Assembly: GCF_964355755.1 (NCBI RefSeq)
Contig: NC_092671.1
Span: 25,046,070 to 25,110,069 of the forward strand
Reading direction: 5' to 3'
Source: Antedon mediterranea
Lineage: Eukaryota > Echinodermata > Crinoidea > Comatulida > Antedonidae
DNA length: 64,000 bases
Shown here: piece by piece, positions 7,271 to 64,000 of the stretch
Numbering within the stretch: position 1 is the stretch's first letter
Layout: every line of letters begins with the position of its first letter
The notes under the pieces: generated by a model
The model's database searches: none
Told to the model about the DNA's origin: nothing
What the model saw: only the letters and a program-made list of their open reading frames with translations
Program-made: the position numbers and the translations under genes

Positions 7271-7509
7271 ATTTTTCTTTAACTTTCTAACTGTATACGT
7301 CTGTATACAGCTTCTTTCGCTGTACCCCGAGTATTGCACATTCGTGCTTGTTTACTCTTTTTTTGGACATATCTGGTCGTAAGATGATAAAGTAAGTATG
7401 CTGTACTTTGTGCAAAAGAGAAAATTATTATTTTAATCGTTTAAATTTTACAGAACACAACCGTGTGACTACATAAGAACTTGGTTTCTTTATAAACATT
7501 TGTTCTCAA

Positions 7510-7848
7510 ATAATACATTTGCCCTATTATAATACATTTGCCCTATTATAATACATTTGCCCTATTATAATACATTTGCCCTATTATAATACATTTGCCC
7601 TATTATAATACATTTGCCCTATTATAATACATTTGCCCTATTATAATACATTTGCCCTATTATAATACATTTGCCCTATTATAATACATTTGCCCTATTA
7701 TAATACATTTGCCCTATTATAATACATTTGCCCTATTATAATACATTTGCCCTATTATAATACATTTGCACTATTATAATACATTTGCCCTATTATAATA
7801 CATTTCCCCTATTATAATACATTTGCCCTATTATAATACATTTGCCTT
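7510..7848. repeat. 19-bp satellite, ~18 copies
   Basis: Head-to-tail units of the 19-mer AATACATTTGCCCTATTAT. Copies are nearly identical; two carry single changes (GCACTA at ~7768, TTCCCC at ~7805). The array ends inside the stop codon of the - strand gene at 7847-7849, so it occupies that gene's 3' UTR or immediate downstream DNA. Confidence 0.95.
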
Positions 7849-50426: not shown

Positions 50427-50538
50427 GTGAGTTGTTTTTAAAAGAAAATTAATATTTAAATAATAATTAGTCAATATTATAAGTTTAATTGTCGATTAGA
50501 TTCATAGAACACAGCATAACTCGTCGATTGTAGTACGT

Positions 50539-50610
50539 GCGTTGGTGATGTAGTGGTTAACATAGTTACCTTCCAAGCAATTGTCCCGGGTTCGATTCCC
50601 GGCCGACGCA
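50539..50610 (+). tRNA. tRNA-Gly (UCC), edge copy
   Basis: Acceptor GCGTTGG/CCGACGC pairs with one G-U. The anticodon stem has an A-C mismatch (GTTAC/GCAAT). Confidence 0.6.
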
Positions 50611-50678
50611 GACATTATAGTTTCATTGTCGATTTGATCCATAGAAACACAGAAAACTCGACTGTAGTAGGCCTACGT

Positions 50679-50750
50679 GCGTCTGTGGTGTAGTGGTTAA
50701 CATAGTTGCCTTCCAAGCAATTGTCCCGGGTTCGATTCCCGGCCGACGCA
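50679..50750 (+). tRNA. tRNA-Gly (UCC)
   Basis: One acceptor mismatch (GCGTCTG); other stems pair. Confidence 0.65.
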
Positions 50751-50815
50751 AACATTGCGTAGTTTTATTGTCGATTTTATTCATAGAAACGCACCAAAAC
50801 TCGATTGTAGTACGT

Positions 50816-50887
50816 GCGTCGGTGGTGTAGTGGTTAACATAGTTGCCTTCCAAGCAATTGTCCCGGGTTCGATTCCCGGCCGACGCA
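50816..50887 (+). tRNA. tRNA-Gly (UCC), intact
   Basis: Consensus copy. Acceptor GCGTCGG/CCGACGC, D stem GTGT/ACAT, anticodon loop CTTCCAA and T arm CCGGG TTCGATT CCCGG all pair. It closely resembles metazoan tRNA-Gly(UCC). Confidence 0.9.
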
Positions 50888-50952
50888 GACATTTTATAGT
50901 TTTATTGTTGATTTCATCCATAGAAACACAGCATAACTCGACTGTAGTACGC

Positions 50953-51024
50953 GCGTCGGTGGTGTAGTGGTTAACATAGTTGCCTTTAAAGCAATTGTCC
51001 CGGGTTCGATTCCCGGCCGACGCA
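50953..51024 (+). tRNA. tRNA-Gly body with UUA anticodon (would read UAA stop)
   Basis: Every stem and both promoter boxes match the intact copies, but the anticodon loop at 50984-50990 is CTTTAAA instead of CTTCCAA. The anticodon is therefore TTA (UUA), complementary to the stop codon UAA. Two bases differ from the array consensus. TTTT follows within ~12 bases. Whether it is expressed, charged with glycine or used in decoding is unknown. Confidence 0.82.
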
Positions 51025-51086
51025 AACATTTTATAGTTTTATTGTCGATTTAATCCATAGAAACACAGCATAACTCGACTGTACAC

Positions 51087-51160
51087 GCGTCGGTGTGGTG
51101 TAGTGGTTAACATAGTTGCCTTCCAAGCAATTGTTCCGGGTTCCATTCCCGGCCGACGCA
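51087..51160 (+). pseudogene. tRNA-Gly (UCC)-like with TG insertion
   Basis: Two extra bases between acceptor and D stem, and T-loop TTCCATT instead of TTCGATT, which damages the B box. Confidence 0.6.
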
Positions 51161-51225
51161 AACATTTTACCGTTTTATTGTCGGTTTGATCCATAGAAAC
51201 ACAGCATAACTCGACTGTAGTACGC

Positions 51226-51300
51226 TCGTCGGTGGTGTAGTGGTTAACATAGTTGCCTCCTTCCAAGCAATTGTCCCGGGTTCGATTCCCGGCCGACGCA
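51226..51300 (+). pseudogene. tRNA-Gly-like with enlarged anticodon loop
   Basis: The anticodon loop is 10 nt (CTCCTTCCAA), and position 1 is T. Confidence 0.6.
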
Positions 51301-51364
51301 AAATTGCATAGTTTTATTGTCGATTTAATCCATAGAAACACAGCATAACTCGACTGTAATACGT

Positions 51365-51436
51365 GCGTCGGTGGTGTAGTGGTTAACATAGTTGTCTTCC
51401 AAGCAATTGTCCCGGGTTCGATTCCCGGCCGACGCA
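51365..51436 (+). tRNA. tRNA-Gly (UCC)
   Basis: All stems pair; the anticodon stem uses one U-G pair (GTTGT/GCAAT). Confidence 0.82.
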
Positions 51437-51498
51437 AATATTTTATAGTTTTATTGTCGATTTAATCCATAGAAACACAGCATAACTCGACTGTACAC

Positions 51499-51572
51499 GC
51501 GTCGGTGTGGTGTAGTGGTTAACATAGTTGCCTTCCAAGCAATTGTTCCGGGTTCCATTCCCGGCCGACGCA
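51499..51572 (+). pseudogene. tRNA-Gly (UCC)-like with TG insertion
   Basis: Same two defects as the copy at 51087, from which it is one ~412-bp block away. Confidence 0.6.
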
Positions 51573-51637
51573 AACATTTTACCGTTTTATTGTCGGTTTG
51601 ATCCATAGAAACACAGCATAACTCGACTGTAGTACGC

Positions 51638-51712
51638 GCGTCGGTGGTGTAGTGGTTAACATAGTTGCCTCCTTCCAAGCAATTGTCCCGGGTTTGATTC
51701 CCGGCCGACGCA
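51638..51712 (+). pseudogene. tRNA-Gly-like with enlarged anticodon loop
   Basis: Same 10-nt loop as at 51226, plus T-loop TTTGATT. Confidence 0.6.
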
Positions 51713-51777
51713 AACATTGCATAGTTTTATTGTCGATTTAATCCATAGAAACACAGCATAACTCGACTGTAATACGT

Positions 51778-51849
51778 GCGTCGGTGGTGTAGTGGTTAAC
51801 ATAGTTGCCTTCCAAGCAATTGTCCCGGGTTCGATTCCCGGCCGACGCA
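51778..51849 (+). tRNA. tRNA-Gly (UCC), intact
   Basis: Consensus sequence throughout. Confidence 0.9.
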
Positions 51850-51913
51850 AATATTTTATAGTTTTATTGTCGATTTAATCCATAGAAACACAGCATAACT
51901 CGACTGTAGTACG

Positions 51914-51987
51914 ACGTCGGTTGTGTAGTGGTTTTAACATAGTTGCGTTCCAAGCAATTGTCCCGGGTTCAATTCCCGGCCGACGCA
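51914..51987 (+). pseudogene. tRNA-Gly (UCC)-like, D-loop insertion
   Basis: Acceptor begins ACGTCGG (A-C at position 1), D loop has two extra T, anticodon loop is GTTCCAA and T-loop TTCAATT. Its counterpart on the right arm is at 58748. Confidence 0.6.
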
Positions 51988-52042
51988 ATGTTTTCAAAGT
52001 TTATTAGTCAATGTGATCTGTAGAAACACAGAATAACTCCCT

Positions 52043-52118
52043 TGTAATGTGGTGTAGTGGTTAACATAGTTGCCTTCCAAGCAATTAATTGTCCCGGGTT
52101 CGATTCCCGGCCGACGCA
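52043..52118 (+). pseudogene. tRNA-Gly-like lacking the 5' acceptor strand
   Basis: The 5' acceptor bases are replaced by TGTAATG, which cannot pair with CCGACGC. The variable region has a 4-base insertion (ATTA). Counterparts on the right arm are at 57536, 58621 and 62730. Confidence 0.65.
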
Positions 52119-52183
52119 AACATTTAATAGTTTTATTGTTGATTTCATCCATAGAAACACAGCATAACTCGACTGTAGTACGT

Positions 52184-52258
52184 GCGTCGGTGGTGTAGTG
52201 GTTAACATAGTTGCCTTCCAAGCAATTAATTGTCCCGGGTTCGATTCCCGGCGACGCA
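52184..52258 (+). pseudogene. tRNA-Gly (UCC)-like, variable-loop insertion
   Basis: A 4-base insertion follows the anticodon stem (GCAATTAATTG), and one C is missing at the T stem/acceptor junction. Confidence 0.55.
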
Positions 52259-52326
52259 AACATTGCATAGTTTTCTTGTCGATTTTATTCATAGAAACAT
52301 AACAGCATAACTCGACTGTAGTACGC

Positions 52327-52398
52327 GCGTCGGTGGTGTAGTGGTTAACATAGTTGCCTTTCAAGCAATTGTCCCGGGTTCGATTCCCGGCCGACGCA
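52327..52398 (+). tRNA. tRNA-Gly body with UUC anticodon (reads Glu GAA)
   Basis: Identical to the intact consensus except for anticodon loop CTTTCAA, giving anticodon TTC. All stems and promoter boxes are intact. Confidence 0.82.
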
Positions 52399-52450
52399 AA
52401 CATTGTCGATTTTATTCATAGAAACACACCAAAACTCTGCTGTAGTACGT

Positions 52451-52522
52451 GCGTCGGTTGTGTAGTGGTTAACATAGTTGCCTTCCAAGCAATTGTCCCG
52501 GGTTTGAGTCCCGGCCGACGCG
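52451..52522 (+). tRNA. tRNA-Gly (UCC), last copy of left arm
   Basis: Stems pair, but the T-loop is TTTGAGT and bases 8-9 are TT; the B box is weakened. Confidence 0.6.
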
Positions 52523-52760
52523 CAATGTTTCCAAAGTTTATTAGTAAATGTGACGTATGGTAGTTTCCCGATTAATCGTACGATCAAACGGTACTGGGTA
52601 TGATCAACTAGCGTTCGTGTTCCCACTTAATCATCCATTCATAGAAGTAGTGATGAAGATATCAATCTGTGGCGACAATAGAATGGACCCGAGACCTGGC
52701 TATCTTCGACTTTTAAATAATAGAAAGTTTAGAATTTTTTTTGTTAGACTAGAAATGTAC
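52523..52760. other. Unique spacer between left arm and transposon
   Basis: About 240 bp. Its first ~30 bp (AATGTTTCCAAAGTTTATTA) match a spacer variant of the array; the rest shows no repeat and no gene. Confidence 0.45.
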
Positions 52761-55700
52761 TAGTCAGGCAGCATTTGTCACTATATTAACTTTACTTCAT
52801 ATATTTAGCCAAGTTTGATTTTTTACTTTTAAATGATCAAGGACATCACAAGAAACAACTTCCAACTTGTTGTCCAAATTCTAAACGCGTTTTTCATTCG
52901 CTGGAGGCGCTTTTTCAAAATGGCCGCCTATGTTATCAAGTACTTATATCTCGGCAACCACTAATTGTAGAGACTTGGTTTTAGTCTTAAAATGTTCGTA
53001 AGGTACATAATTCTATTCACTATAATGGAACATTTTGCCCTAAAATGACCGGAAATACTATTTCTGACCATTTAACCTTTGACCTGATCTTATCATATCT
53101 CAATAACTATTGGTCAGAAAGAGTTGATATTTATCCCAAATTTTTCAGAAAATACATGTTTCTATTTGCCTTAATGCAAAGGTTTGTTTCAAGATGGCCA
53201 GAAAAACCATATCTGACCTTTGACCATAACCTGTGTGATATCCACAACATGTTGGTTATAGATAACATTTTTCGACAGATTGCTCAGAACATCCATATTT
53301 GTAACACATTATTGATTTTTCAATTATTGATGCTTTAAAACATTCACTTAAGCTTGGAAATTAAAGTTTTAAAATAAATAAAAGCCACTCATTATCTCCA
53401 TACATAATCCTAGCCTGTGATTGGCTGAAAGTTCAAGCAGATTAGATTTCATGAGTTTAAATGGTAAGTGTTTTTTAAACCGATTTAAACAGTGTTTGCT
53501 GGGAAATCATACTTATTATTAGTACATATACATTTACTTGTATAATAATGTACCTATGCTGATATAAATGTTGTACAGAGAGGCCTTAGTTAAATAGTTA
53601 TAAACTATAATTCCAGCCTAGGCCTTGTCGCTAACACCTAGCAAACAATGCTAGCCTGGTGAGATCCCCGTGGAACTCAGTGACAAGCCAACTCAGTGCA
53701 TGTGGACCTCCGATGATGTCAGTCAAACGATTGAAAAGCGAGTCTAATTAGGAAAAGAAGCATTGGATAAATTTGTGACTTCACGAATGGTTGAAAAAAC
53801 CGTAAAATTTTGGGACCCTCAAAAGAAAAACAACTTCTCTTATTTCAAGGATGTAGGAGCAGTGGTGAAAACCAAAATTAAAGGTCAACTAGTTTCAATT
53901 AAGCAAGAGAGAAAGATGCTGTCTAGGTTGTTAGTTGTGGCAAAGAGCAGGCCAGAGTTCGCTCTAAAGGATGTCATAGGCAACTATGAGTTCAATAGCA
54001 CTCCACCATCAAATTTCCATCCAGATGGAAGAATGGTATTGCAGTCAATAACAGAACTCCCTCTACCAGATAATGTCAGCAGGCCTGTACAGAAAGATGA
54101 TAAAAAGCAGCATCAATCCTAATTATTGATGGAATGTGTGTCGTCAATATGGTAAAGAAGGTGTCTGAAAAGTTCAATGCTTCTGACTTTGCATCTGAAT
54201 TTGTTAACCTGATTGTTGGTATGAGCAAACCATATGATGAAGTTCGTCTTTTATTTGATCAATATCTATCAGGATCTTTAAAAGAATCTACACGAGATAA
54301 GAGAAAACAGAAAACAACTACCATTCACTACCATGACATTTTTATCGCACAAAGAGACCAAAGCTGAACTTACAAAATATCTGTCAGAGAAGATACCTAA
54401 TCACTTCAAGAACAACACGAAGAAGGTCCTAGCAACACATCACACGTCCATGATGGCAAACTGCAATCTCTCAGAAGTTATCAAGATACCAGAGATGACA
54501 CACGGACAACACACATTGGAAGAAGGGGACCAACTGGTCTTATTGTATGCCTTTGATTGTATGAACAAAGACCCAAGTGCCAATGTTGACATATTTTCTG
54601 TAGATACTGATGTCTTTATCCTTTTAACAGGAAGCTATCCTCTACTTCCTCCAATGACCACATTTTGTAGGAAAAGAGGGTAAAAAATACCTATATGGCA
54701 ATGCTATTACCGACTTTGAAAACAAATATCAGCAGCACTGATTGGATGGTACGCATTAGGTACAGATAACATAGGTACATTTGCTGGAAAAGTAGTGTCC
54801 GCCCATTTCAAAGCATTTCAATGCATTTGCTGTATATGGACTGACCTCTGAAATACCAAATTGGATTTTCAGGCAAATGGAAAGATATGTTTGCATATTA
54901 TACAGTACTTCTAAGATCAAGGCAGATTATGTCACAGACTTGAGATGGATGTTATTTGCACCGAAAGGCAAGGAAGGACAACAATTACCTCCAACCATGG
55001 GAACTCTTAGACCACACGTGGAAAGAGCATACTACATATCTATTGTATGTAATTCATCATGCAAGCCAACTCCATCTATTCCACCAGCAACTGACTACTC
55101 CTGGCAACTAGAAGATGGTCACTTGAAGCCGGTATTTTGCAACAATCCACCAGCACCAGAAGCTCTTCTAGAAATTCGTCGATGTACCTGCAATGGTTCA
55201 TGTTCAACAAATCGCTGTAGTTGTAAGAAAAACAACTTGCTCTGTACTGATGCATGTGAGTGTGGTGATGGATGTGAGAATACAAAGGACTGGAATGTAG
55301 AGCTAGTAGACGATATCGATGAACTTTATTGACTGGAGAGGGTAATCTGACTATATTCAATATTTATGGTATGTATTTATTTATTATAACAGTTCCATTG
55401 GTGATTTGAAATATTGATTTTGGAACAAGGGATATCATCAACAAAACCACAAGTACAGGTACAAGTTATAAACAATACTAGACAAATCTATAGTCTCTCA
55501 GTTATGGATATTACATGCATTAGGGCAAGAGGTCAGATATGGCATTTCTGTTTGCTTTAAAACAAAACATTTAATTACAGTAAATATAAAAAGGCATACT
55601 GTGAACAATTTGAAACAAATTTCAAGTCTGTGTGACCATTAGTTACCGAGATATGATGATAGGTCAAAGGTCAAACGGTCAGAAATGGCATTTTCAGTCA

Positions 55701-55977
55701 TTTCTGGTCAAAATATTCCATAGGGGTAAATAGAAATATGTACCTTACAAACATTTAAAGATTAAAACAAAGTCTCTACGATTAGTGGTTGCCAAAATAT
55801 AAGTACTTGATAGCATAAGCGGCCATTTTGAAAAAGCGCCCCCAGCGAATGAAAAACGCATTTAGAATTTGGACAACAAGTTGGAAGTTGTTCGTTGTGA
55901 TGTCCTTGATCACTTAAAAGTGAAAAATCAAACTTGGCTAAATATATGAAGTAAAATACAAATGCTGCCTGACTATA
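52761..55977. mobile_element. ~3.2-kb transposon with long terminal inverted repeats
   Basis: The left end starts TAGTCAGGCAGCATTTG at 52761 and the right end finishes CAAATGCTGCCTGACTA at 55977. The similarity continues inward for several hundred bases on both sides (for example TTCCAACTTGTTGTCCAAAT at ~52859 and its complement at ~55870; AAAATGGCCGCC at ~52917 against GGCCATTTTG at ~55821), with roughly one difference per 8-10 bases. A TA at each tip may be the target duplication. The middle (53763-55332) carries a broken protein gene. It sits exactly where the tRNA array changes strand. Confidence 0.8.
53763..55332 (+). pseudogene. Broken gene of a multi-copy uncharacterised CXC-motif protein family
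   Basis: Four open pieces (53763-54122, 54134-54367, 54333-54683, 54877-55332) follow one another in shifted frames, so at least three frameshifts plus internal stops (~54720-54800) break one original gene. Visible motifs are LIIDG near 54125, SVDTDVFILLTG (54597-54632), a degenerate TDNIGTFAGK block near 54765, and the C-terminal cysteine cluster CTCNGSCSTNRCSCKKNN plus CTDACECGDGC (about 55190-55275). The same order (DTDV box, T-x-x-DN-x-x-F-x-GK box, QLPP, PAPE-x-LLE, then CXC-type cysteines) occurs in a large unnamed family often predicted in invertebrate and fish genomes. DTDV recalls PIN/FEN-like nuclease acidic motifs, but function is unproven. It is probably the element's own protein. 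Confidence 0.65.
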
Positions 55978-56300
55978 CGTTGTATGTATAGGCCTATAGA
56001 AAAATGGTTGTAGTTTTCAAAATTACGTTGTATAAGTTTTCAAAATTACGTTGTATAAGTTGCGATGTGAAAAACTGTTATTTGATCGTTAGTTGTCCTG
56101 TACATAAAGCAAAAACATAAATATAATAAAATAAAATAAAAATCGTTAGTAAAAATTTTAAAAAAGAGTAAAGATATAAGGAAGAAAAGCAAAGAGATCA
56201 TGGAGCGGCTGTACCAGAATATACAACACTAAGTATTGTAAAGTTAAAAACTAAAAAATTAGGCGAAACAGGTAGAAACACAGAATAACTATAAAATATT
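55978..56300. other. Unique spacer between transposon and right tRNA arm
   Basis: AT-rich, no gene. It contains a direct duplication of TTTTCAAAATTACGTTGTAT (56014 and 56036). Confidence 0.5.
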
Positions 56301-56372
56301 TGGGTCGGACGGTAGTCGAACCCGGGACAATTGCTTGGAAGGCAACTATGTTAACCACTACACCACCGACGC
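56301..56372 (-). pseudogene. tRNA-Gly (UCC)-like, edge copy
   Basis: Acceptor C-C mismatch and two T-stem mismatches; the first unit of the arm is decayed. Confidence 0.6.
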
Positions 56373-56438
56373 ACGTACTACAGTCGAGTTATGCTGTGTT
56401 ACTATGGATTAAATTGACAATAAAACTATAAAAATGTC

Positions 56439-56510
56439 TGTGTCGGCCGGGAATCGAACCCAGGACAACTGCTTGGAAGGCAACTATGTTAACCACTACA
56501 CCACCGACGC
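56439..56510 (-). tRNA. tRNA-Gly (UCC)
   Basis: One acceptor mismatch (3' strand CCGACAC); other stems pair with wobbles. Confidence 0.62.
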
Positions 56511-56575
56511 ACGTACTACAGTCGAGTTATGCTGTGTTTCTATGGATTAAATCGACAATAAAACTATAAAATGAT

Positions 56576-56647
56576 TGCGTCGGCCGGGAATCGAACCCGG
56601 GACAATTGCTTGGAAGGCAACTATGTTAACCACTACACCACCGACGC
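56576..56647 (-). tRNA. tRNA-Gly (UCC), intact
   Basis: Consensus copy. Confidence 0.9.
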
Positions 56648-56712
56648 ACGTACTACAGTCGAGTTATGCTGTGTTTCTATGGATTAAATCGACAATAAAA
56701 CTATAAAATGAT

Positions 56713-56784
56713 TGCGTCGGCCGGGAATCGAACCCGGGACAATTGCTTGGAAGGCAACTATGTTAACCACTACACCACCGACGC
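56713..56784 (-). tRNA. tRNA-Gly (UCC), intact
   Basis: Consensus copy. Confidence 0.9.
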
Positions 56785-56849
56785 AGGTACAACAGTCGAG
56801 TTATGCTGTGTTTCTATGGAGCAAATCGACAATAAAATTATAAAATGTG

Positions 56850-56921
56850 TGCGTTGGCTGGGAATCGAACCCGGGACAATTGCTTGGAAGGCAACTATGT
56901 TAACCACTACACCACCAACGC
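56850..56921 (-). tRNA. tRNA-Gly (UCC), compensated acceptor
   Basis: Acceptor is GCGTTGG/CCAACGC: both partners of pair 5-68 changed, so pairing is kept. One T-stem mismatch (CCCAG). Confidence 0.72.
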
Positions 56922-56987
56922 AGGTACTACAGTCGAGTTATGCTGTGTTTCTATGGATTAAATTGACAATAAAACTATAAAAATGTC

Positions 56988-57059
56988 TGTGTCGGCCGGG
57001 AATCGAACCCAGGAAAACTGCTTGGAAGGCAACTATGTTAACCACTACACCACCAACGC
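56988..57059 (-). tRNA. tRNA-Gly (UCC)
   Basis: Acceptor mismatch at pair 2 and U-G at pair 5. Confidence 0.58.
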
Positions 57060-57124
57060 ACGTACTACAGTCGAGTTATGCTGTGTTTCTATGGATTAAA
57101 TCGACCATAAAACTATAAAATGAT

Positions 57125-57196
57125 TGCGTCGGCCGGGAATCGAACCCGGGACAATTGCTTGGAAGGCAACTATGTTAACCACTACACCACCGCCGC
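57125..57196 (-). tRNA. tRNA-Gly (UCC)
   Basis: Consensus except one acceptor mismatch (GCGGCGG). Confidence 0.68.
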
Positions 57197-57261
57197 ACGT
57201 ACTACAGTCGAGTTATGCTGTGTTTCTATGGATCAAATCGACAATAAAACTATAAAATGTC

Positions 57262-57333
57262 TGCGTCGGCCGGGAATCGAACCCGGGACAATTGCTTGGA
57301 AGGCAACTATGTTAACCACTACACCACCGACGC
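57262..57333 (-). tRNA. tRNA-Gly (UCC), intact
   Basis: Consensus copy; the flanking spacer is a divergent variant (GCATTATTATCGAG). Confidence 0.88.
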
Positions 57334-57398
57334 ATGCATTATTATCGAGTTATGCTGTATTTCCATGGATCAAATCGACAATAAAACTATGCAATGTT

Positions 57399-57470
57399 TG
57401 CGTCGGCCGGGAATCGAACCCTGGACAATTGCTTGGAAAGCAACTATGTTAACCACTACATCACCAACGC
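57399..57470 (-). tRNA. tRNA-Gly (UCC), altered loop
   Basis: Anticodon loop TTTCCAA, acceptor 5' GCGTTGG, one T-stem mismatch. Confidence 0.55.
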
Positions 57471-57535
57471 GCGTACTACAGTCGAGTTATGCTGTGTTTC
57501 TATGGATCAAATCGACAATAAAACTATAAATTGTT

Positions 57536-57607
57536 TGCCTCGGCCGGGAATCGAACTCGGGACAACTGCTTGGGAGGCAACTATGTTAACCACTACACCA
57601 CATTACA
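57536..57607 (-). pseudogene. tRNA-Gly (CCC)-like lacking 5' acceptor strand
   Basis: Anticodon loop CTCCCAA gives CCC (Gly GGG), but the 5' acceptor strand is replaced by TGTAATG and cannot pair. Confidence 0.65.
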
Positions 57608-57662
57608 ATGGAGTTATTCTGTGTTTCTACAGATCACATTGACTAATAAACTTTGAAAACAT

Positions 57663-57733
57663 TGCGTCGGCAAGGAATTGAACCCGGGACAATTGCTTGG
57701 AACGCAACTAATTAACCACTACACAACCGACGT
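57663..57733 (-). pseudogene. tRNA-Gly (UCC)-like
   Basis: Loop GTTCCAA, D-arm deletion, poor T stem, A-C at acceptor pair 1. Confidence 0.6.
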
Positions 57734-57797
57734 CGTACTACAGTCGAGTTATGCTGTGTTTCTATGGATCAAATCGACAATAAAACTATAAAATGTT

Positions 57798-57868
57798 TCG
57801 TCGGCCGGTAATCGAACCCGGGACAATTGCTTGGAAGGCAACTATGTTAACCACTACACCACCGACGA
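57798..57868 (-). pseudogene. tRNA-Gly (UCC)-like
   Basis: One base missing from the 3' acceptor strand, and a T-stem mismatch (TACCGG). Confidence 0.55.
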
Positions 57869-57933
57869 GCGTACTACAGTCGAGTTATGCTGTGTTTCTA
57901 TGGAACAAATCGACAATAAAACTATAAAATGAT

Positions 57934-58005
57934 TGCGTCGGCCGGGAATCGAACCCGGGACAATTCCTTGGAAGGCAACTATGTTAACCACTACACCACC
58001 GACGC
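57934..58005 (-). tRNA. tRNA-Gly (UCC)
   Basis: Consensus except one anticodon-stem mismatch (GTTGC/GGAAT). Confidence 0.65.
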
Positions 58006-58070
58006 GCGTACTACAGTCGAGTTATGCTGTGTTTCTATGGATCAAATCGACAATAAAACTATAAAATGTT

Positions 58071-58143
58071 TGCGTCGGCCGGGAATCGAACCCGGGACAA
58101 TTGCTTGGAAGGCAACTATGTTAAACCACTACACCACCGACGT
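58071..58143 (-). tRNA. tRNA-Gly (UCC), D-loop +1
   Basis: One extra T in the D loop and A-C at acceptor pair 1; the rest is consensus. Confidence 0.58.
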
Positions 58144-58209
58144 GCGAACTACAGTCGAGTTATGCTGTGTTTCTATGGATTAAATTGACTATAAAACTAT
58201 AAAAATGTC

Positions 58210-58281
58210 TGTGTCGGCCGGGAATCGAACCCAGGACAACTGCTTGGAAGGCAACTATGTTAACCACTACACCACCAACGC
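58210..58281 (-). tRNA. tRNA-Gly (UCC)
   Basis: Same pattern as the copy at 56988: one acceptor mismatch plus wobbles. Confidence 0.58.
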
Positions 58282-58346
58282 ACGTACTACAGTCGAGTTA
58301 TGCTGTGTTTCTATGGATTAAATCGACAATAAAACTATAAAATGAT

Positions 58347-58418
58347 TGCGTCGGCCGGGAATCGAACCCGGGACAATTGCTTGGAAGGCAACTATGTTAA
58401 CCACTACACCACCGACGC
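58347..58418 (-). tRNA. tRNA-Gly (UCC), intact
   Basis: Consensus copy. Confidence 0.9.
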
Positions 58419-58483
58419 ACGCATTATAATCGAGTTATGCTGTATTTCCATGGATCAAATCGACAATAAAACTATGCAATGTT

Positions 58484-58555
58484 TGCGTCGGCCGGGAATC
58501 GAACCCTGGACAATTGCTTGGAAGGCAACTATGTTAACCACTACACCACCGACGC
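58484..58555 (-). tRNA. tRNA-Gly (UCC)
   Basis: Consensus except one T-stem mismatch (CAGGG/CCCGG). Confidence 0.68.
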
Positions 58556-58620
58556 GCGTACTACAGTCGAGTTATGCTGTGTTTCTATGGATCAAATCGA
58601 CAATAAAACTATAAATTGTT

Positions 58621-58692
58621 TGCCTCGGCCGGGAATCGAACCCGGGACAACTGCTTGGGAGGCAACTATGTTAACCACTACACCACATTACA
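58621..58692 (-). pseudogene. tRNA-Gly (CCC)-like lacking 5' acceptor strand
   Basis: Same as 57536: loop CTCCCAA, acceptor replaced by TGTAATG. Confidence 0.65.
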
Positions 58693-58747
58693 ATGGAGTT
58701 ATTCTGTGTTTCTACAGATCACATTGACTAATAAACTTTGAAAACAT

Positions 58748-58819
58748 TGCGTCGGCAAGGAATTGAACCCGGGACAATTGCTTGGAACGCAACTATGTTA
58801 ACCACTACACAACCGACGT
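58748..58819 (-). pseudogene. tRNA-Gly (UCC)-like
   Basis: Loop GTTCCAA, T-loop TTCAATT, weak T stem, A-C at acceptor pair 1. Confidence 0.58.
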
Positions 58820-58883
58820 CGTACTACAGTCGAGTTATGCTGTGTTTCTATGGATCAAATCGACAATAAAACTATAAAATGTT

Positions 58884-58955
58884 TGCGTCGGCCGGTAATC
58901 GAACCCGGGACAATTGCTTGGAAGGCAACTATGTTAACCACTACACCACCGATGA
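58884..58955 (-). pseudogene. tRNA-Gly (UCC)-like
   Basis: Two acceptor mismatches (TCATCGG) and one T-stem mismatch. Confidence 0.55.
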
Positions 58956-59020
58956 GCGTACTACAGTCGAGTTATGCTGTGTTTCTATGGAACAAATCGA
59001 CAATAAAACTATAAAATGTT

Positions 59021-59092
59021 TGCGTCGGCCGGGAATGGAACCCGGGACAATTGCTTGAAAGGCAACTATGTTAACCACTACACCACCGACGC
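59021..59092 (-). tRNA. tRNA-Gly body with UUC anticodon, T-loop altered
   Basis: Loop CTTTCAA gives anticodon TTC. Stems pair, but the T-loop is TTCCATT, which weakens the B box and tertiary fold. Confidence 0.65.
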
Positions 59093-59157
59093 GCGTACTA
59101 CAGTCGAGTTATGCTGTGTTTCTATGGATCAAATCGATAATAAAACTATAAAATGTT

Positions 59158-59230
59158 TGCGTCGGCCGGGAATCGAACCCGGGACAATTGCTTGGAAGGC
59201 AACTATGTTAAACCACTACACCACCGACGT
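59158..59230 (-). tRNA. tRNA-Gly (UCC), D-loop +1
   Basis: Same form as the copy at 58071. Confidence 0.58.
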
Positions 59231-59295
59231 GCGAACTACAGTCGAGTTATGCTGTGTTTCTATGGATCAAATCGACAATAAAACTATAAAATGTT

Positions 59296-59367
59296 TGCGT
59301 CGGCCGGGAATCGAACCCGGGACAATTGCTTGGAAGGCAACTATGTTAACCACTACACCACCGACGC
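59296..59367 (-). tRNA. tRNA-Gly (UCC), intact
   Basis: Consensus copy. Confidence 0.9.
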
Positions 59368-59432
59368 GCGAACTACAGTCGAGTTATGCTGTGTTTCTAT
59401 GGATCAAATCGACAATAAAACTATAAAATGTT

Positions 59433-59504
59433 TGTGTCGGCCGGGAATCGAACCCGGGACAATTGCTTGGAAGGCAACTATGTTAACCACTACACCACCG
59501 ACGC
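59433..59504 (-). tRNA. tRNA-Gly (UCC)
   Basis: One acceptor mismatch (CCGACAC), otherwise consensus. Confidence 0.68.
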
Positions 59505-59569
59505 GCGTACTACAGTCGCGTTATGCTGTGTTTCTATGGATCAAATCGACAATAAAACTATAAAATGTT

Positions 59570-59644
59570 TGCGTCGGCCGCCGGGAATCGAACCAGGGAC
59601 AATTGCTTGGAAGGCAACTATGTTAACCACTACACCACCGACGC
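59570..59644 (-). pseudogene. tRNA-Gly (UCC)-like, 3-nt insertion
   Basis: Three extra bases at the acceptor/T-stem junction (GGCCGCCGGG) and one T-stem change. Confidence 0.58.
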
Positions 59645-59709
59645 GCGTAATACAGTCGAGTTATGCTGTGTTTCTATGGATCAAATCGACAATAAAACTA
59701 TAAAATATT

Positions 59710-59781
59710 TGCGTCGGCAGGGAATCGAACCCGGGACAATTGCTTGGAAGGCAACTATGTTAACCACTACACCACATTACA
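59710..59781 (-). pseudogene. tRNA-Gly (UCC)-like lacking 5' acceptor strand
   Basis: 5' acceptor replaced by TGTAATG, as at 57536, but anticodon UCC. Confidence 0.62.
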
Positions 59782-59811
59782 ATGGAGTTATTCTGTGTTT
59801 CTACTACAGAT

Positions 59812-59849
59812 GTAGAAGGCAACTATGTTAACCACTACACCAACGACGC
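59812..59849 (-). pseudogene. tRNA-Gly 5'-half fragment
   Basis: Acceptor 5' strand and D arm only, ending at the anticodon stem; T arm and 3' acceptor are missing. Confidence 0.6.
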
Positions 59850-59914
59850 GTGTATTACAGTCGAGTTATGCTGTGTTTCTATGGATGAAATCGACAATAA
59901 AACTATAAAATGTT

Positions 59915-59986
59915 TGCGTCGGCCGGGAATCGAACCCGGGACAATTGCTTTGAACGCAACTATGTTAACCACTACACAACCGACGT
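59915..59986 (-). tRNA. tRNA-Gly body with UCA anticodon (would read UGA stop)
   Basis: Anticodon loop GTTCAAA (59946-59955 region) gives anticodon TCA. D, anticodon and T stems pair, and the T arm is consensus. The acceptor has an A-C mismatch at pair 1 (ACGTCGG/CCGACGC). It derives from the GTTCCAA-loop subtype by one further change. Confidence 0.68.
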
Positions 59987-60050
59987 CGTACTACAGTCTA
60001 GTTATGCTGTGTTTCTATGGATCAAAGCGACAATAAAACTATAAAATGTT

Positions 60051-60122
60051 TGCGTCGGCCGGTAATCGAACCCGGGACAATTGCTTGGAAGGCAACTATG
60101 TTAACCACTACACCACCGACGA
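60051..60122 (-). tRNA. tRNA-Gly (UCC), weak
   Basis: T-C at acceptor pair 1 and one T-stem mismatch. Confidence 0.55.
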
Positions 60123-60187
60123 GCGTACTACAGACGAGTTATGCTGTGTTTCTATGGAACAAATCGACAATAAAACTATAAAATGTT

Positions 60188-60259
60188 TGCGTCGGCCAGG
60201 AATGGAACCCGGGACAATTGCTTGGAAGGCAACTATGTTAACCACTACACCACCGACGC
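60188..60259 (-). tRNA. tRNA-Gly (UCC), T-loop altered
   Basis: T-loop TTCCATT; other parts near consensus. Confidence 0.58.
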
Positions 60260-60324
60260 GCGTACTACAGTCGAGTTATGCTGTGTTTCTATGGATCAAA
60301 TCGACAATAAAACTATAAAATGTT

Positions 60325-60397
60325 TGCGTCGGCCGGGAATCGAACCCGGGACAATTGCTTGGAAGGCAACTATGTTAAACCACTACACCACCGACGT
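60325..60397 (-). tRNA. tRNA-Gly (UCC), D-loop +1
   Basis: Block copy of 59158. Confidence 0.58.
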
Positions 60398-60462
60398 GCG
60401 AACTACAGTCGAGTTATGCTGTGTTTCTATGGATCAAATCGACAATAAAACTATAAAATGTT

Positions 60463-60534
60463 TGCGTCGGCCGGGAATCGAACCCGGGACAATTGCTTGG
60501 AAGGCAACTATGTTAACCACTACACCACCGACGC
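60463..60534 (-). tRNA. tRNA-Gly (UCC), intact
   Basis: Consensus; block copy of 59296. Confidence 0.9.
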
Positions 60535-60599
60535 GCGAACTACAGTCGAGTTATGCTGTGTTTCTATGGATCAAATCGACAATAAAACTATAAAATGTT

Positions 60600-60671
60600 T
60601 GTGTCGGCCGGGAATCGAACCCGGGACAATTGCTTGGAAGGCAACTATGTTAACCACTACACCACCGACGC
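60600..60671 (-). tRNA. tRNA-Gly (UCC)
   Basis: Block copy of 59433, with the same single acceptor mismatch. Confidence 0.68.
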
Positions 60672-60736
60672 GCGTACTACAGTCGCGTTATGCTGTGTTT
60701 CTATGGATCAAATCGACAATAAAACTATAAAATGTT

Positions 60737-60811
60737 TGCGTCGGCCGCCGGGAATCGAACCAGGGACAATTGCTTGGAAGGCAACTATGTTAACCACTAC
60801 ACCACCGACGC
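60737..60811 (-). pseudogene. tRNA-Gly (UCC)-like, 3-nt insertion
   Basis: Block copy of 59570. Confidence 0.58.
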
Positions 60812-60876
60812 GCGTACTACAGTCGAGTTATGCTGTGTTTCTATGGATCAAATCGACAATAAAACTATAAAATATT

Positions 60877-60948
60877 TGCGTCGGCAGGGAATCGAACCCG
60901 AGACAATTGCTTGGAAGGCAACTATGTTAACCACTACACCACATTACA
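60877..60948 (-). pseudogene. tRNA-Gly (UCC)-like lacking 5' acceptor strand
   Basis: Block copy of 59710. Confidence 0.62.
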
Positions 60949-60975
60949 ATGGAGTTATTCTGTGTTTCTACAGAT

Positions 60976-61013
60976 GTAGAAGGCAACTATGTTAACCACT
61001 ACACCAACGACGC
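60976..61013 (-). pseudogene. tRNA-Gly 5'-half fragment
   Basis: Block copy of 59812. Confidence 0.6.
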
Positions 61014-61078
61014 GTGTATTACAGTCGAGTTATGCTGTGTTTCTATGGATGAAGTCGACAATAAAACTATAAAATGTT

Positions 61079-61150
61079 TGCGTCGGCCGGGAATCGAACC
61101 CGGGACAATTGCTTGGAAGGCAACTATGTTAACCACTACACCACCGACAC
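61079..61150 (-). tRNA. tRNA-Gly (UCC)
   Basis: Fully paired; acceptor GTGTCGG gives a U-G at pair 2. Confidence 0.82.
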
Positions 61151-61215
61151 GCGTACTACAGTCGAGTTATGCTGTGTTTCTATGGATCAAATCGACAATA
61201 AAACTATAAAATGTT

Positions 61216-61287
61216 TGCGTCGGCCGGGAATCGAACCCAGGACAACTGCTTGGAAGGCAACTATGTTAACCACTACACCACCGACGC
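61216..61287 (-). tRNA. tRNA-Gly (UCC)
   Basis: Fully paired using wobbles in the T stem (CTGGG) and anticodon stem (GCAGT). Confidence 0.82.
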
Positions 61288-61352
61288 ACGTACTACAGTC
61301 GAGTTATGCTGTGTTTCTATGGATTAAATCGACAATAAAACTATAAAATGTT

Positions 61353-61424
61353 TGCGTCGGCCGGGAATCGAACCCGGGACAATTGCTTGGAAGGCAACTA
61401 TGTTAACCACTACACCACCGACGC
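61353..61424 (-). tRNA. tRNA-Gly (UCC), intact
   Basis: Consensus copy. Confidence 0.9.
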
Positions 61425-61489
61425 ACGTACTACAGTCGAGTTATGCTGTGTTTCTATGGATTAAATCGACAATAAAACTATAAAATGAT

Positions 61490-61561
61490 TGCGTCGGCCG
61501 GGAATCGAACCCGGGACAATTGCTTGGAAGGCAACTATGTTAACCACTACACCACCGACGC
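61490..61561 (-). tRNA. tRNA-Gly (UCC), intact
   Basis: Consensus copy. Confidence 0.9.
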
Positions 61562-61626
61562 AGTTACAACAGTCGAGTTATGCTGTGTTTCTATGGAGCA
61601 AATCGACAATAAAATTATAAAATGTG

Positions 61627-61698
61627 TGCGTTGGCTGGGAATCGAACCCGGGACAATTGCTTGGAAGGCAACTATGTTAACCACTACACCACCAACGC
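61627..61698 (-). tRNA. tRNA-Gly (UCC), compensated acceptor
   Basis: Same paired double change as 56850 (GCGTTGG/CCAACGC). Confidence 0.72.
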
Positions 61699-61767
61699 AG
61701 GTACTATACAGTCGAGTTATGCTGTGTTTCTATCGATTAAATTGACAATAAAACTATAAAAATGTCT

Positions 61768-61837
61768 GTGTCGGCCGGGAATCGAACCAAGGCAACTGCT
61801 TGGAAGGCAACTATGTTAACCACTACACCACCAACGC
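61768..61837 (-). pseudogene. tRNA-Gly (UCC)-like, T-arm deletion
   Basis: 70 nt; two bases are lost in the T stem/variable region (GAACCAAGGCAAC). Confidence 0.6.
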
Positions 61838-61902
61838 ACGTACTACAGTCGAGTTATGCTGTGTTTCTATGGATTAAATCGACAAATAAACTATAAAATG
61901 TT

Positions 61903-61974
61903 TGCGTCGGCCGGGATTCGAACCCGGGACAATTGCTTGGAAGGCAACTATGTTAACCACTACACCACCGACGC
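61903..61974 (-). tRNA. tRNA-Gly (UCC)
   Basis: Fully paired; T-loop TTCGAAT, a tolerated change. Confidence 0.86.
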
Positions 61975-62039
61975 ACGTACTACAGTCGAGTTTTGCTGTG
62001 TTTCTATGGATTAAATCGACAATAAAACTATAAAATGAT

Positions 62040-62111
62040 TGCGTCGGCCGGGAATCGAACCCGGGACAATTGCTTGGAAGGCAACTATGTTAACCACTAC
62101 ACCACCGACGC
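62040..62111 (-). tRNA. tRNA-Gly (UCC), intact
   Basis: Consensus; block copy of 61490. Confidence 0.9.
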
Positions 62112-62176
62112 AGTTACAACAGTCGAGTTATGCTGTGTTTCTATGGAGCAAATCGACAATAAAATTATAAAATGTG

Positions 62177-62248
62177 TGCGTTGGCGGGGAATCGAACCCG
62201 GGACAATTGCTTGGAAGGCAACTATGTTAACCACTACACCACCAACGC
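62177..62248 (-). tRNA. tRNA-Gly (UCC), compensated acceptor
   Basis: Block copy of 61627 with a different T-stem mismatch (CCCCG). Confidence 0.7.
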
Positions 62249-62317
62249 AGGTACTATACAGTCGAGTTATGCTGTGTTTCTATCGATTATATTGACAATA
62301 AAACTATAAAAATGTCT

Positions 62318-62387
62318 GTGTCGGCCGGGAATCGAACCAAGGCAACTGCTTGGAAGGCAACTATGTTAACCACTACACCACCAACGC
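62318..62387 (-). pseudogene. tRNA-Gly (UCC)-like, T-arm deletion
   Basis: Block copy of 61768. Confidence 0.6.
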
Positions 62388-62452
62388 ACGTACTACAGTC
62401 GAGTTATGCTGTGTTTCTATGGATTAAATCGACAAATAAACTATAAAATGAT

Positions 62453-62524
62453 TGCGTCGGCCGGGAATCGAACCCGGGACAATTGCTTGGAAGGCAACTA
62501 TGTTAACCACTACACCACCGACGC
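62453..62524 (-). tRNA. tRNA-Gly (UCC), intact
   Basis: Consensus copy. Confidence 0.9.
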
Positions 62525-62589
62525 ACGCATTATAATCGAGTTATGCTGTATTTCCATGGATCAAATCGACAATAAAACTATGCAATGTT

Positions 62590-62664
62590 TGCGTCGGCCG
62601 GGAATCGAACCCTGGACAATTGCTTGGAAGGCAACTATGTTAACCACTACACCACCACCGACGC
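62590..62664 (-). pseudogene. tRNA-Gly (UCC)-like, 3-nt insertion
   Basis: Three extra bases at the acceptor/D junction and one T-stem mismatch. Confidence 0.55.
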
Positions 62665-62729
62665 GCGTACTACAGTCGAGTTATGCTGTGTTTCTATGGA
62701 TCAAATCGACAATAAAACTATAAATTGTT

Positions 62730-62801
62730 TGCCTCGGCCGGGAATCGAACCCGGGACAACTGCTTGGGAGGCAACTATGTTAACCACTACACCACATTAC
62801 A
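62730..62801 (-). pseudogene. tRNA-Gly (CCC)-like lacking 5' acceptor strand
   Basis: Third CCC copy, same defect as 57536 and 58621. Confidence 0.65.
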
Positions 62802-62856
62802 ATGGAGTTATTCTGTTTTTCTACAGATCACATTGACTAATAAACTTTGAAAACAT

Positions 62857-62928
62857 TGCGTCGGCATGGAATTGAACCCGGGACAATTGCTTGGAACGCA
62901 ACTATGTTAACCACTACACAACCGACGT
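62857..62928 (-). pseudogene. tRNA-Gly (UCC)-like
   Basis: Loop GTTCCAA, two T-stem mismatches, A-C at acceptor pair 1. Confidence 0.58.
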
Positions 62929-62992
62929 CGTACTACAGTCGAGTTATGCTGTGTTTCTATGGATCAAATCGACAATAAAACTATAAAATGTT

Positions 62993-63064
62993 TGCGTCGG
63001 CCGGTAATCGAACCCGGGACAATTGCTTGGAAGGCAACTATGTTAACCACTACACCACCGACGA
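62993..63064 (-). tRNA. tRNA-Gly (UCC), weak
   Basis: T-C at acceptor pair 1 and one T-stem mismatch, as at 60051. Confidence 0.55.
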
Positions 63065-63129
63065 GCGTACTACAGTCGAGTTATGCTGTGTTTCTATGGA
63101 ACAAATCGACAATAAAACTATAAAATGTT

Positions 63130-63201
63130 TGCGTCGGCCGGGAATGGAACCCGGGACAATTGCTTGGAAGGCAACTATGTTAACCACTACACCACCGACG
63201 C
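63130..63201 (-). tRNA. tRNA-Gly (UCC), T-loop altered
   Basis: T-loop TTCCATT, as at 60188. Confidence 0.58.
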
Positions 63202-63266
63202 GCGTACTACAGTCGAGTTATGCTGTGTTTCTATGGATCAAATCGACAATAAAACTATAAAATGTT

Positions 63267-63338
63267 TGCGTCGGCCGGGAATCGAACCCGGGACAATTGC
63301 TTGGAAGGCAACTATGTTAACCACTACACCACCGACGC
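63267..63338 (-). tRNA. tRNA-Gly (UCC), intact
   Basis: Consensus copy. Confidence 0.9.
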
Positions 63339-63403
63339 GCGTACTACAGTCGCGTTATGCTGTGTTTCTATGGATCAAATCGACAATAAAACTATAAAAT
63401 GTT

Positions 63404-63478
63404 TGCGTCGGCCGCCGGGAATCGAACCAGGGACAATTGCTTGGAAGGCAACTATGTTAACCACTACACCACCGACGC
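63404..63478 (-). pseudogene. tRNA-Gly (UCC)-like, 3-nt insertion
   Basis: Block copy of 60737. Confidence 0.58.
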
Positions 63479-63543
63479 GCGTACTACAGTCGAGTTATGC
63501 TGTGTTTCTATGGATCAAATCGACAATAAAACTATAAAATATT

Positions 63544-63615
63544 TGCGTCGGCAGGGAATCGAACCCGGGACAATTGCTTGGAAGGCAACTATGTTAACCA
63601 CTACACCACATTACA
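63544..63615 (-). pseudogene. tRNA-Gly (UCC)-like lacking 5' acceptor strand
   Basis: Block copy of 60877. Confidence 0.62.
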
Positions 63616-63642
63616 ATGGAGTTATTCTGTGTTTCTACAGAT

Positions 63643-63680
63643 GTAGAAGGCAACTATGTTAACCACTACACCAACGACGC
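63643..63680 (-). pseudogene. tRNA-Gly 5'-half fragment
   Basis: Block copy of 60976. Confidence 0.6.
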
Positions 63681-63745
63681 GTGTATTACAGTCGAGTTAT
63701 GCTGTGTTTCTATGGATGAAATCGACAATAAAACTATAAAATGTT

Positions 63746-63817
63746 TGCGTCGGCCGGGAATCGAACCCGGGACAATTGCTTGGAAGGCAACTATGTTAAC
63801 CACTACACCACCGACGC
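63746..63817 (-). tRNA. tRNA-Gly (UCC), intact
   Basis: Consensus copy. Confidence 0.9.
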
Positions 63818-63882
63818 GCGTACTACAGTCGAGTTATGCTGTGTTTCTATGGATCAAATCGACAATAAAACTATAAAATGTT

Positions 63883-63954
63883 TGCGTCGGCCGGGAATCG
63901 AACCCAGGACAACTGCTTGGAAGGCAACTATGTTAACCACTACACCACCGACGC
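63883..63954 (-). tRNA. tRNA-Gly (UCC)
   Basis: Fully paired with wobbles, like 61216; last complete copy before the window edge. Confidence 0.82.
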
Positions 63955-64000
63955 ACGTACTACAGTCGAGTTATGCTGTGTTTCTATGGATTAAATCGAC

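Follow-up and report, generated by a model that had tools for sequence, protein, structure and literature searches.

The window analysed, a stretch of 64,000 nucleotides of the Antedon mediterranea genome (C2:25046070-25110069; genome searched 354 Mb, 18 contigs), carries on its forward strand the first part of the gene for the NMDA receptor subunit GluN1 (GRIN1) and, in the intron following exon 8, an array of tRNA-Gly(UCC) genes (Table 1). The gene was traced over 14 exons and 877 amino acids on the + strand, the final C-terminal exon lying outside the trace; the frame of the spliced translation is unbroken and all 13 introns traced are of the GT...AG type. The original prediction of eight in-frame exons ending at 50426 with a normal donor (AAG/gtgagt), the M1 exon being next, was borne out, and the M1-M4 exons, whose presence downstream, in frame and on the + strand had been set beforehand as a test, are found beyond the window as exons 9-14 (C2:25127123-25129684), continuing the frame at phase 0. 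The best PDB match of the protein is GluN1 over residues 26-854, that is over the whole receptor (E 2e-238), ahead of GluN2B (2e-104). A genome search with the whole protein, which returned at least 41 matches, revealed neither a second GluN1 copy nor remaining exons at another place: 14 of these 41 are the 14 exons at the locus and the other 27 are 21-54% identical. With an intact spliced frame and no GluN1 exons matched at another locus, a GluN1 gene that is broken or located elsewhere is unsupported for the 14 traced exons.

Table 1. Features of the GluN1 locus, in positions of the window
Feature	Position	Strand	Remarks
GluN1 exon 1	39438..39824	+	starting at the ATG used; covers signal peptide and beginning of amino-terminal domain; spliced translation, GluN1 match
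GluN1 exon 2	41658..41846	+	spliced translation
GluN1 exon 3	42276..42376	+	spliced translation
GluN1 exon 4	42749..43039	+	spliced translation
GluN1 exon 5	44183..44417	+	spliced translation
GluN1 exon 6	48969..49071	+	spliced translation
GluN1 exon 7	49784..49902	+	spliced translation
GluN1 exon 8	50262..50426	+	ends ...TILVKK immediately 5' of M1; donor AAG/gtgagt; spliced translation
GluN1 intron 8, window part	50427..64000	+	ends at C2:25127122, 17,053 bp past the window
Sense block	50539..52521	+	15 tRNA-Gly(UCC)-derived units, 137-bp period; tRNA calls, nhmmer, Rfam
Insert, DNA transposon copy	52556..56268		within + spacer; borders approximate, by eye; inverted arms 52791-53085 / 55661-55955
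Antisense block, window part	56302..64000	-	tRNA-Gly(UCC) units; continues to C2:25126316, then 4 + matches (2 fragments) to C2:25127040

Intron 8 measures 30,627 bp, the remaining 12 traced introns 147-4,551 bp. Over the whole intron nhmmer detects 197 tRNA-Gly(UCC) matches, 172 of them full length, and ARAGORN makes 175 tRNA calls, of which 168 are Gly; the other seven (two Arg, three Glu, one Stop and one SeC) are array copies with a changed or shifted anticodon. An array of about 70 copies had been predicted inside the intron; array and intron stand, but this figure holds for the window part only (66 calls, 60 called Gly), the whole intron having about 175. The predicted start of the first tRNA-Gly at 50539 was likewise confirmed, as was the presence of the array on both strands, yet the strands are unequal, with 16 full-length copies in sense and 156 in antisense to GluN1, and the array does not take up all of the remaining window, as the stretch 52,522-56,301 is largely a transposon insert. 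The consensus unit consists of one tRNA and a spacer of about 65 bp, so that more than half of it is tRNA, and the sense and antisense blocks have the 137-bp period in common. Chance is excluded: between 50427 and 53000 Rfam yields 15 matches, every one of them a tRNA at 41-70 bits where the gathering score is 29, and both blocks keep the same period. Within the array there are near-identical duplications of 2,299 bp (99.2%) and 3,087 bp (97.5%), which are consistent with recent unequal exchange, and the intron also contains an inverted repeat of about 2 kb (91.7%). The 3.8-kb insert, a copy of a dispersed DNA transposon in which no Pfam family was found in six frames, is the only gap in the array of more than 1000 nt.

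Since tandem arrays are difficult to assemble, an array from elsewhere might have been joined into GluN1 by mistake. We consider this very improbable: the assembly has no N anywhere across intron 8, the two halves of GluN1 lie in order on one strand with matching phase 0 and no second copy was found, and the outermost tRNA matches of the array lie 112 nt from exon 8 and, for the last fragment, 82 nt 5' of exon 9, the M1 exon. Furthermore, when one 137-bp unit was searched against the genome, the spacer was matched, among the best ten candidates, on C2 only and there solely in the array. In the same ten candidates the matches on other contigs cover the tRNA alone, and a tRNA-derived SINE, whose dispersed copies would carry a body unrelated to the tRNA, was rejected on this ground.

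The locus can be assigned to several known classes. By the definition of Bermudez-Santana et al. 2010 (PMC2888827) it is a homogeneous tDNA cluster, as the 137-bp period keeps the genes less than 1000 nt apart and 168 of 175 calls belong to one isoacceptor family; a strict reading of the anticodon makes the other seven heterogeneous, and the gap caused by the insert splits the run into two clusters under the same definition. The tRNA genes are at the same time intronic (nested), being flanked in frame by exons 8 and 9 of a protein gene, and the long head-to-tail array with its near-identical internal duplications corresponds to a homogenised satellite DNA. Clusters of at least 50 tRNA genes are reported in Nematostella and teleost fishes, and tRNA pairs are described as mostly heterogeneous in Nematostella, clawed frog and zebrafish and mostly homogeneous in Tetrahymena, Monosiga and drosophilids (PMC2888827). 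Eukaryote clusters of this type share with our array the close spacing, the single isoacceptor family and a mostly parallel orientation; in distinction to the mostly heterogeneous pairs of Nematostella, clawed frog and zebrafish, each array sampled here is dominated by one amino acid, and the GluN1 array is intronic. Entamoeba also has tRNA genes in many tandem arrays, with units of up to five tRNA genes and short tandem repeats between them (PMC2652664), whereas here the unit is one tRNA with its 65-bp spacer, in an animal and in an intron, and an array of the Entamoeba type was thus discarded. In C. elegans, introns of Pol II genes are described as housing individual tRNA genes, transcribed by Pol III, in either orientation (PMC4999229), while here about 175 copies, mostly antisense, fill one intron. 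The human tRNA VNTR at 1q23.3 is a tandem repeat with a tRNA and is implicated as a boundary element; its GC-rich, CTCF-binding units of 7.3 kb, present in 9-43 units per allele, are less than 6% tRNA (PMC4041453), against more than half in the present 137-bp units.

Out of the 49 exact copies of the 71-nt tRNA-Gly(UCC) in the genome, 44 sit inside intron 8, so that one stretch of DNA serves both the receptor and the bulk of the exact tRNA copies; the five others are dispersed genes identical to the array consensus over 71 nt. All 44 exact copies, out of 172 at full length, have a T-run within 50 nt. Taken one by one as sequence signals, the A box is kept in 138, the B box in 130 and TTTT within 50 nt in 168 of the 172, and 103 retain all four signals considered (these three and the anticodon loop), the other 69 missing at least one. 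We favour as reasonably probable, judging from the sequence, that a satellite of tRNA genes arisen by unequal exchange inside the GluN1 intron serves as a redundant reservoir of tRNA-Gly(UCC), in which single copies drift. Each good unit, having A box, B box and T-run, would be a self-contained Pol III gene, and the array would then be the main canonical tRNA-Gly(UCC) stock of the genome. Alternatively, the satellite may be transcriptionally dead and the few dispersed genes may supply the tRNA, a reading which we regard as rather unlikely; the five identical dispersed genes and the 69 copies lacking a signal speak for it, the 44 exact copies with their T-runs and a consensus still equal to five unlinked genes speak against it.

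The variation among units bears on the same question. A comparison of full-length copies with a same-strand neighbour (156/172) gave 0.021 for the tRNA and 0.049 for the spacer, but constraint on the whole tRNA was rejected as an explanation because picking full-length tRNAs biases the result. Variation was therefore re-measured on units anchored at the spacer, the A box, the B box or the anticodon, and by counting changes on a tree; the bias of the spacer anchoring is opposite to that of the full-length choice. On the tree of units the tRNA outside the anchor has 2.49 changes per site and the spacer 2.38; once CpG sites are set aside, the tRNA without its positions 10-29 is on a par with the spacer, and stems are uncompensated, with 0.304 of single stem changes retaining pairing against 0.301 expected. 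These results agree with a dead satellite, but drift of single copies is expected as well in a redundant, active array. When changes are counted, positions 10-29 (A box and D arm) are the sole exception, their number being 3-6 times lower there than in the spacer under four anchors, the contrast shrinking to 1.94 vs 2.74 with a looser anchor inside this block. CpG decay was ruled out as its cause, since the contrast persists without CpG sites; the quiet block is missing from the Cys array. Pure drift does not predict such a paucity of changes in what is the least variable part of the unit, and this counts against the dead satellite, but also against unconstrained drift of single copies in the favoured reading. 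The frequency of variants is also lower in the tRNA (0.036 vs 0.061 in the spacer, p 0.058), which holds for every array and anchor compared (e.g. Cys, 0.055 vs 0.066), and singleton variants per site are 0.0048 in the tRNA and 0.0079 in the spacer. The rarer tRNA variants, which likewise speak against a dead satellite and against drift alone, fit weak selection against the spread of faulty copies.

Ten further tRNA arrays were sampled, with Lys, Cys, Thr, Ile, Leu, Phe or Pro as the prevailing tRNA; with the GluN1 array they occupy at least five contigs, so the process forming such arrays is general in this genome. A candidate array suggested by B-box pairs at C2:10.334 Mb was discarded, as ARAGORN finds no tRNA there. 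Two 5-kb flank stretches each of the Cys, Pro, Phe and Leu arrays were scanned in six frames against Pfam, a procedure by which the GluN1 exons, as positive control, were detected. No host gene was found in these flanks, a weak test given that two stretches are partly and two mostly array. Matches were to retrotransposon domains, with one Myb-like match below cut-off, and in the stretches that are mostly Leu array to short parts of bacterial families, with ANAPC4 below cut-off; the remaining stretches gave no match. In the flanks of two Lys arrays, for which lists of open reading frames were inspected by eye, a reverse-transcriptase-like frame adjoins the Lys-CUU array.

An effect of the array on GRIN1 splicing, expression or insulation, as originally predicted, is plausible in that the sequence features allow it. 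The array might even be retained as a regulator of GluN1, acting as insulator, polyadenylation trap or transcription brake: AATAAA occurs 168 times in sense and 21 times in antisense in the intron, the 2-kb inverted repeat is present, 156 of the 172 full-length units are head-on to GluN1, and the human tRNA repeat is a candidate boundary element (PMC4041453). This seems to us improbable, since the AATAAA excess traces to one hexamer per repeat unit, and the four like arrays without a detected host gene in their scanned flanks make a GluN1-specific role unneeded. Equally doubtful is a coupling of the two genes, in which Pol II passing head-on through the antisense tRNA genes would cut tRNA output where GluN1 is on, while the sense hexamers and the inverted repeat would set the rate of GluN1 truncation; the truncated product would be a membrane-less fragment of 530 residues from exons 1-8, comprising the amino-terminal domain and the N-terminal half of the ligand domain. 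A narrow literature search on Pol III genes within introns and Pol II elongation found nothing. For C. elegans intronic tRNAs an influence of the host promoter and lower Pol III occupancy, less so if antisense, are described (PMC4999229); by analogy the same may apply here.

For the favoured reservoir we propose that a founder tRNA-Gly(UCC) gene in intron 8 was multiplied by unequal exchange into the satellite-like array of 137-bp units, that at least one inversion gave the short sense and the long antisense block, and that a common transposon inserted later. Redundant single copies would drift under little constraint, turnover maintaining a pool of perfect ones, and good copies would be transcribed by Pol III. 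Pol II would read GluN1 across the array, which would be removed with intron 8 by normal splicing.

Both tRNA genes in large clusters and lone tRNA genes within introns are known; about 175 copies in one intron unite the two at an extreme scale and place the majority of a tRNA's exact genes under a neuronal receptor gene. The array is a natural test of Pol II passage through dense Pol III territory, and if the coupling were true, variation in copy number would tune both tRNA output and GluN1 truncation. The genome of this crinoid offers a case for studying the evolution of tRNA genes that are treated in the manner of satellite or ribosomal DNA, in which single copies would be only slightly constrained as they drift, the consensus of the array remaining equal to the dispersed gene.

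The GluN1 (GRIN1) gene, encoding an NMDA receptor subunit, continues beyond the right end of the window. In the adjoining 50 kb, which contain no N, Pfam Lig_chan is matched on the + strand at C2:25127168 and C2:25127889 (C1, C2 and so on are contigs of the source assembly, C2 being the one which carries the window, at 25046070-25110069; the assembly has 354,431,138 bases in 18 contigs). Fourteen exons, traced as far as the one before the final C-terminal exon, join into 877 residues free of stop codons. All 13 introns joining these exons have GT...AG borders, and the reading frame passes through intron 8 at phase 0. Residues 26-854 of the translated protein align with GluN1 at E 2e-238; the GluN2B match is far weaker (2e-104). 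The original prediction, that a tRNA-Gly array sits within an intron of this gene and that further exons follow in frame on the + strand, is borne out: exons flank the array on both sides, the joined frame is unbroken, and as assembled the array truly lies within the intron. A genome search with the GluN1 protein, with 52 of 53 candidates scored, gave 41 matches; 14 are these exons and the other 27 are only 21-54% identical, so that GluN1 looks single-copy. In relatives on C6 and C11 a single stop-free match spans the position of intron 8, so that related receptors do not all share it.

Intron 8 measures 30,627 bp, against 147-4,551 bp for the remaining 12 traced introns. A search with the 72-nt tRNA found 197 matches in it, 178 antisense and 19 sense to GluN1, including 172 full-length ones (156 antisense, 16 sense); ARAGORN called 175 tRNA genes in the entire intron, 168 of them Gly. 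The first match starts 112 nt past exon 8 and the last fragment stops 82 nt short of exon 9. The sense and antisense blocks cover 26,653 bp and share a 137-bp period (TRF), and all 15 Rfam matches at window positions 50427-53000 are tRNA. For the part of the array inside the window (50538-63955), about 70 copies had been predicted; ARAGORN made 66 tRNA calls there, of which 60 are Gly. The array does occupy both strands (15 calls on +, 51 on -), but it does not fill the rest of the window, since 52,522-56,301 is largely non-array. Between the two blocks lies a DNA transposon copy with inverted arms of 295 nt (89% identity). One arm has at least 41 genome matches at 92-100% (40 of 797 candidates scored), so that the insert represents a dispersed family. 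It interrupts a + spacer, both halves of which are legible by eye at its sides, and is thus younger than the array. Read by eye, 53700-55340 resembles coding sequence and is rich in cysteines at one end; Pfam matched no family in six frames of the transposon copy.

The array consensus is identical over 71 nt to five dispersed tRNA-Gly(UCC) genes (three on C1, one each on C3 and C11), and 44 of the 49 exact 71-nt copies in the genome are in intron 8. An A box is present in 138 of the 172 full-length copies, a B box in 130, the anticodon loop in 139 and a TTTT within 50 nt in 168; all four signals are found together in 103, and 44 copies have the exact consensus. Altered anticodons were called by ARAGORN in four copies, Stop(tta) at 50953-51024, Glu(ttc) at 52327-52398 and 59021-59092, and SeC(tca) at 59915-59986. 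If expressed and charged with glycine, such copies could misread codons.

On a tree of 181 units, the tRNA outside the anchor (the unit segment used to pick copies for alignment) shows 2.49 changes per site and the spacer 2.38. The least changed stretch, with four anchors and 130-184 units, is positions 10-29, which hold the A box and the D arm. Counted at non-CpG sites, changes there amount to 0.25-0.75 per site versus 1.48-2.17 in the spacer, or 3-6 times fewer, one anchor lying inside this stretch and three outside; the remaining tRNA equals the spacer, and the B box has no such deficit. At a looser setting the contrast is weaker with the anchor inside positions 10-29 (1.94 versus 2.74) and clear with two anchors outside. 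In 114 ungapped copies (45 distinct), pairing is retained after 17 of 56 single stem substitutions (0.304, 0.301 expected), and compensated double changes occur in two distinct copies. Variant frequency is lower in the tRNA (0.036) than in the spacer (0.061; p 0.058), as in all four arrays compared, and so are singletons per site (0.0048 and 0.0079), which speaks against a purely neutral reading. Pieces of the Lys-UUU (46-47 units), Cys (45-47) and Lys-CUU (17-25) arrays have tRNA changes per site similar to the spacer, with no p below 0.08, and a quiet A box sought in the Cys array was absent. Two near-identical duplications inside the intron 8 array (2,299 bp, 99.2%, shift 2,530; 3,087 bp, 97.5%, shift 2,877) point to recent unequal exchange. 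Single copies thus look redundant, and constraint on them would be at most weak; the consensus is still that of the dispersed gene.

B-box pairs spaced as in tRNA arrays occur 1,003 times in the genome, versus 32 for the reversed pattern; further patterns gave 792 versus 5, with a subset of 553 versus 2, and 461 versus 1. These searches overlap, so the counts are not additive, and the places in the table are among the matches listed, with identities from ARAGORN on sampled stretches. Including Gly, there are at least 11 arrays for at least eight amino acids on at least five contigs. Many tRNA genes thus sit, in the sampled stretches, in long tandem arrays that each consist chiefly of genes for a single amino acid. 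Anticodons for the same amino acid are mixed in the Leu, Thr and Pro arrays, and lone copies with foreign anticodons are present in several; at C1:30.281-30.2825 Mb, two of eight copies in the Pro array were called Thr(agt) and Ser(aga). An intronic position was established for none of the ten other arrays (Pfam tests at four). The window also contains a lone tRNA-Val(AAC) at 7198-7271, which precedes the first traced GluN1 exon by about 32 kb (ARAGORN).

Other tRNA arrays of the genome and further repeats of the window
Feature	Location	Method
Lys-UUU array	C8 about 23.58-23.675 Mb	ARAGORN
Lys-CUU array	C3 8.1 Mb	ARAGORN
Cys-GCA array	C2 14.17-14.19 Mb	ARAGORN
Thr (AGU/UGU) array	C4 34.57-34.60 Mb	ARAGORN
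Ile-AAU array	C1 41.05 Mb	ARAGORN
Leu (AAG/UAG) arrays, one with a CAG	C3, two places	ARAGORN
Phe-GAA arrays	C1, two places	ARAGORN
Pro array, AGG/UGG/CGG anticodons mixed	C1 30.28 Mb	ARAGORN
Minisatellite, 55-bp unit, 34 copies	window 26586-28460	TRF
Minisatellite, 23-bp unit, 48 copies	window 17651-18746	TRF
Minisatellite, 19-bp unit, 18 copies	window 7510-7851	TRF
262-bp tandem duplication, 98%, GluN1 intron 5	window 45805-46330	TRF

Earlier papers describe tRNA arrays in Entamoeba (PMC2652664), a human tRNA VNTR (PMC4041453) and Drosophila tandem arrays which expand and contract (PMC7919458). Among the open-licence papers listed by searches that paired tRNA arrays with GRIN1, or that looked for tRNA satellites or tandem tRNA arrays, none places such an array in GluN1. 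The array of intron 8, homogeneous and intronic at once, combines known kinds, and one of comparable scale was not found in the literature searched.

Intron 8 carries 168 AATAAA hexamers on the sense strand versus 21 on the opposite strand, and base shuffles give about 20; 162 of the 168 lie within the antisense block, the count being high because each repeat unit carries one hexamer. The density is 5.5 per kb, compared with 2.5 per kb in the other 12 introns (27 in 10.9 kb). Along about 2 kb the sense and antisense blocks could pair with each other, at 91.7%. On paper, the AATAAA excess and the block pairing would both be hazards for GluN1. For intronic tRNAs of C. elegans, PMC4999229 reports an influence of the host promoter and reduced Pol III occupancy, with a smaller effect on the opposite strand; by analogy, the GluN1 promoter may influence the array in intron 8.
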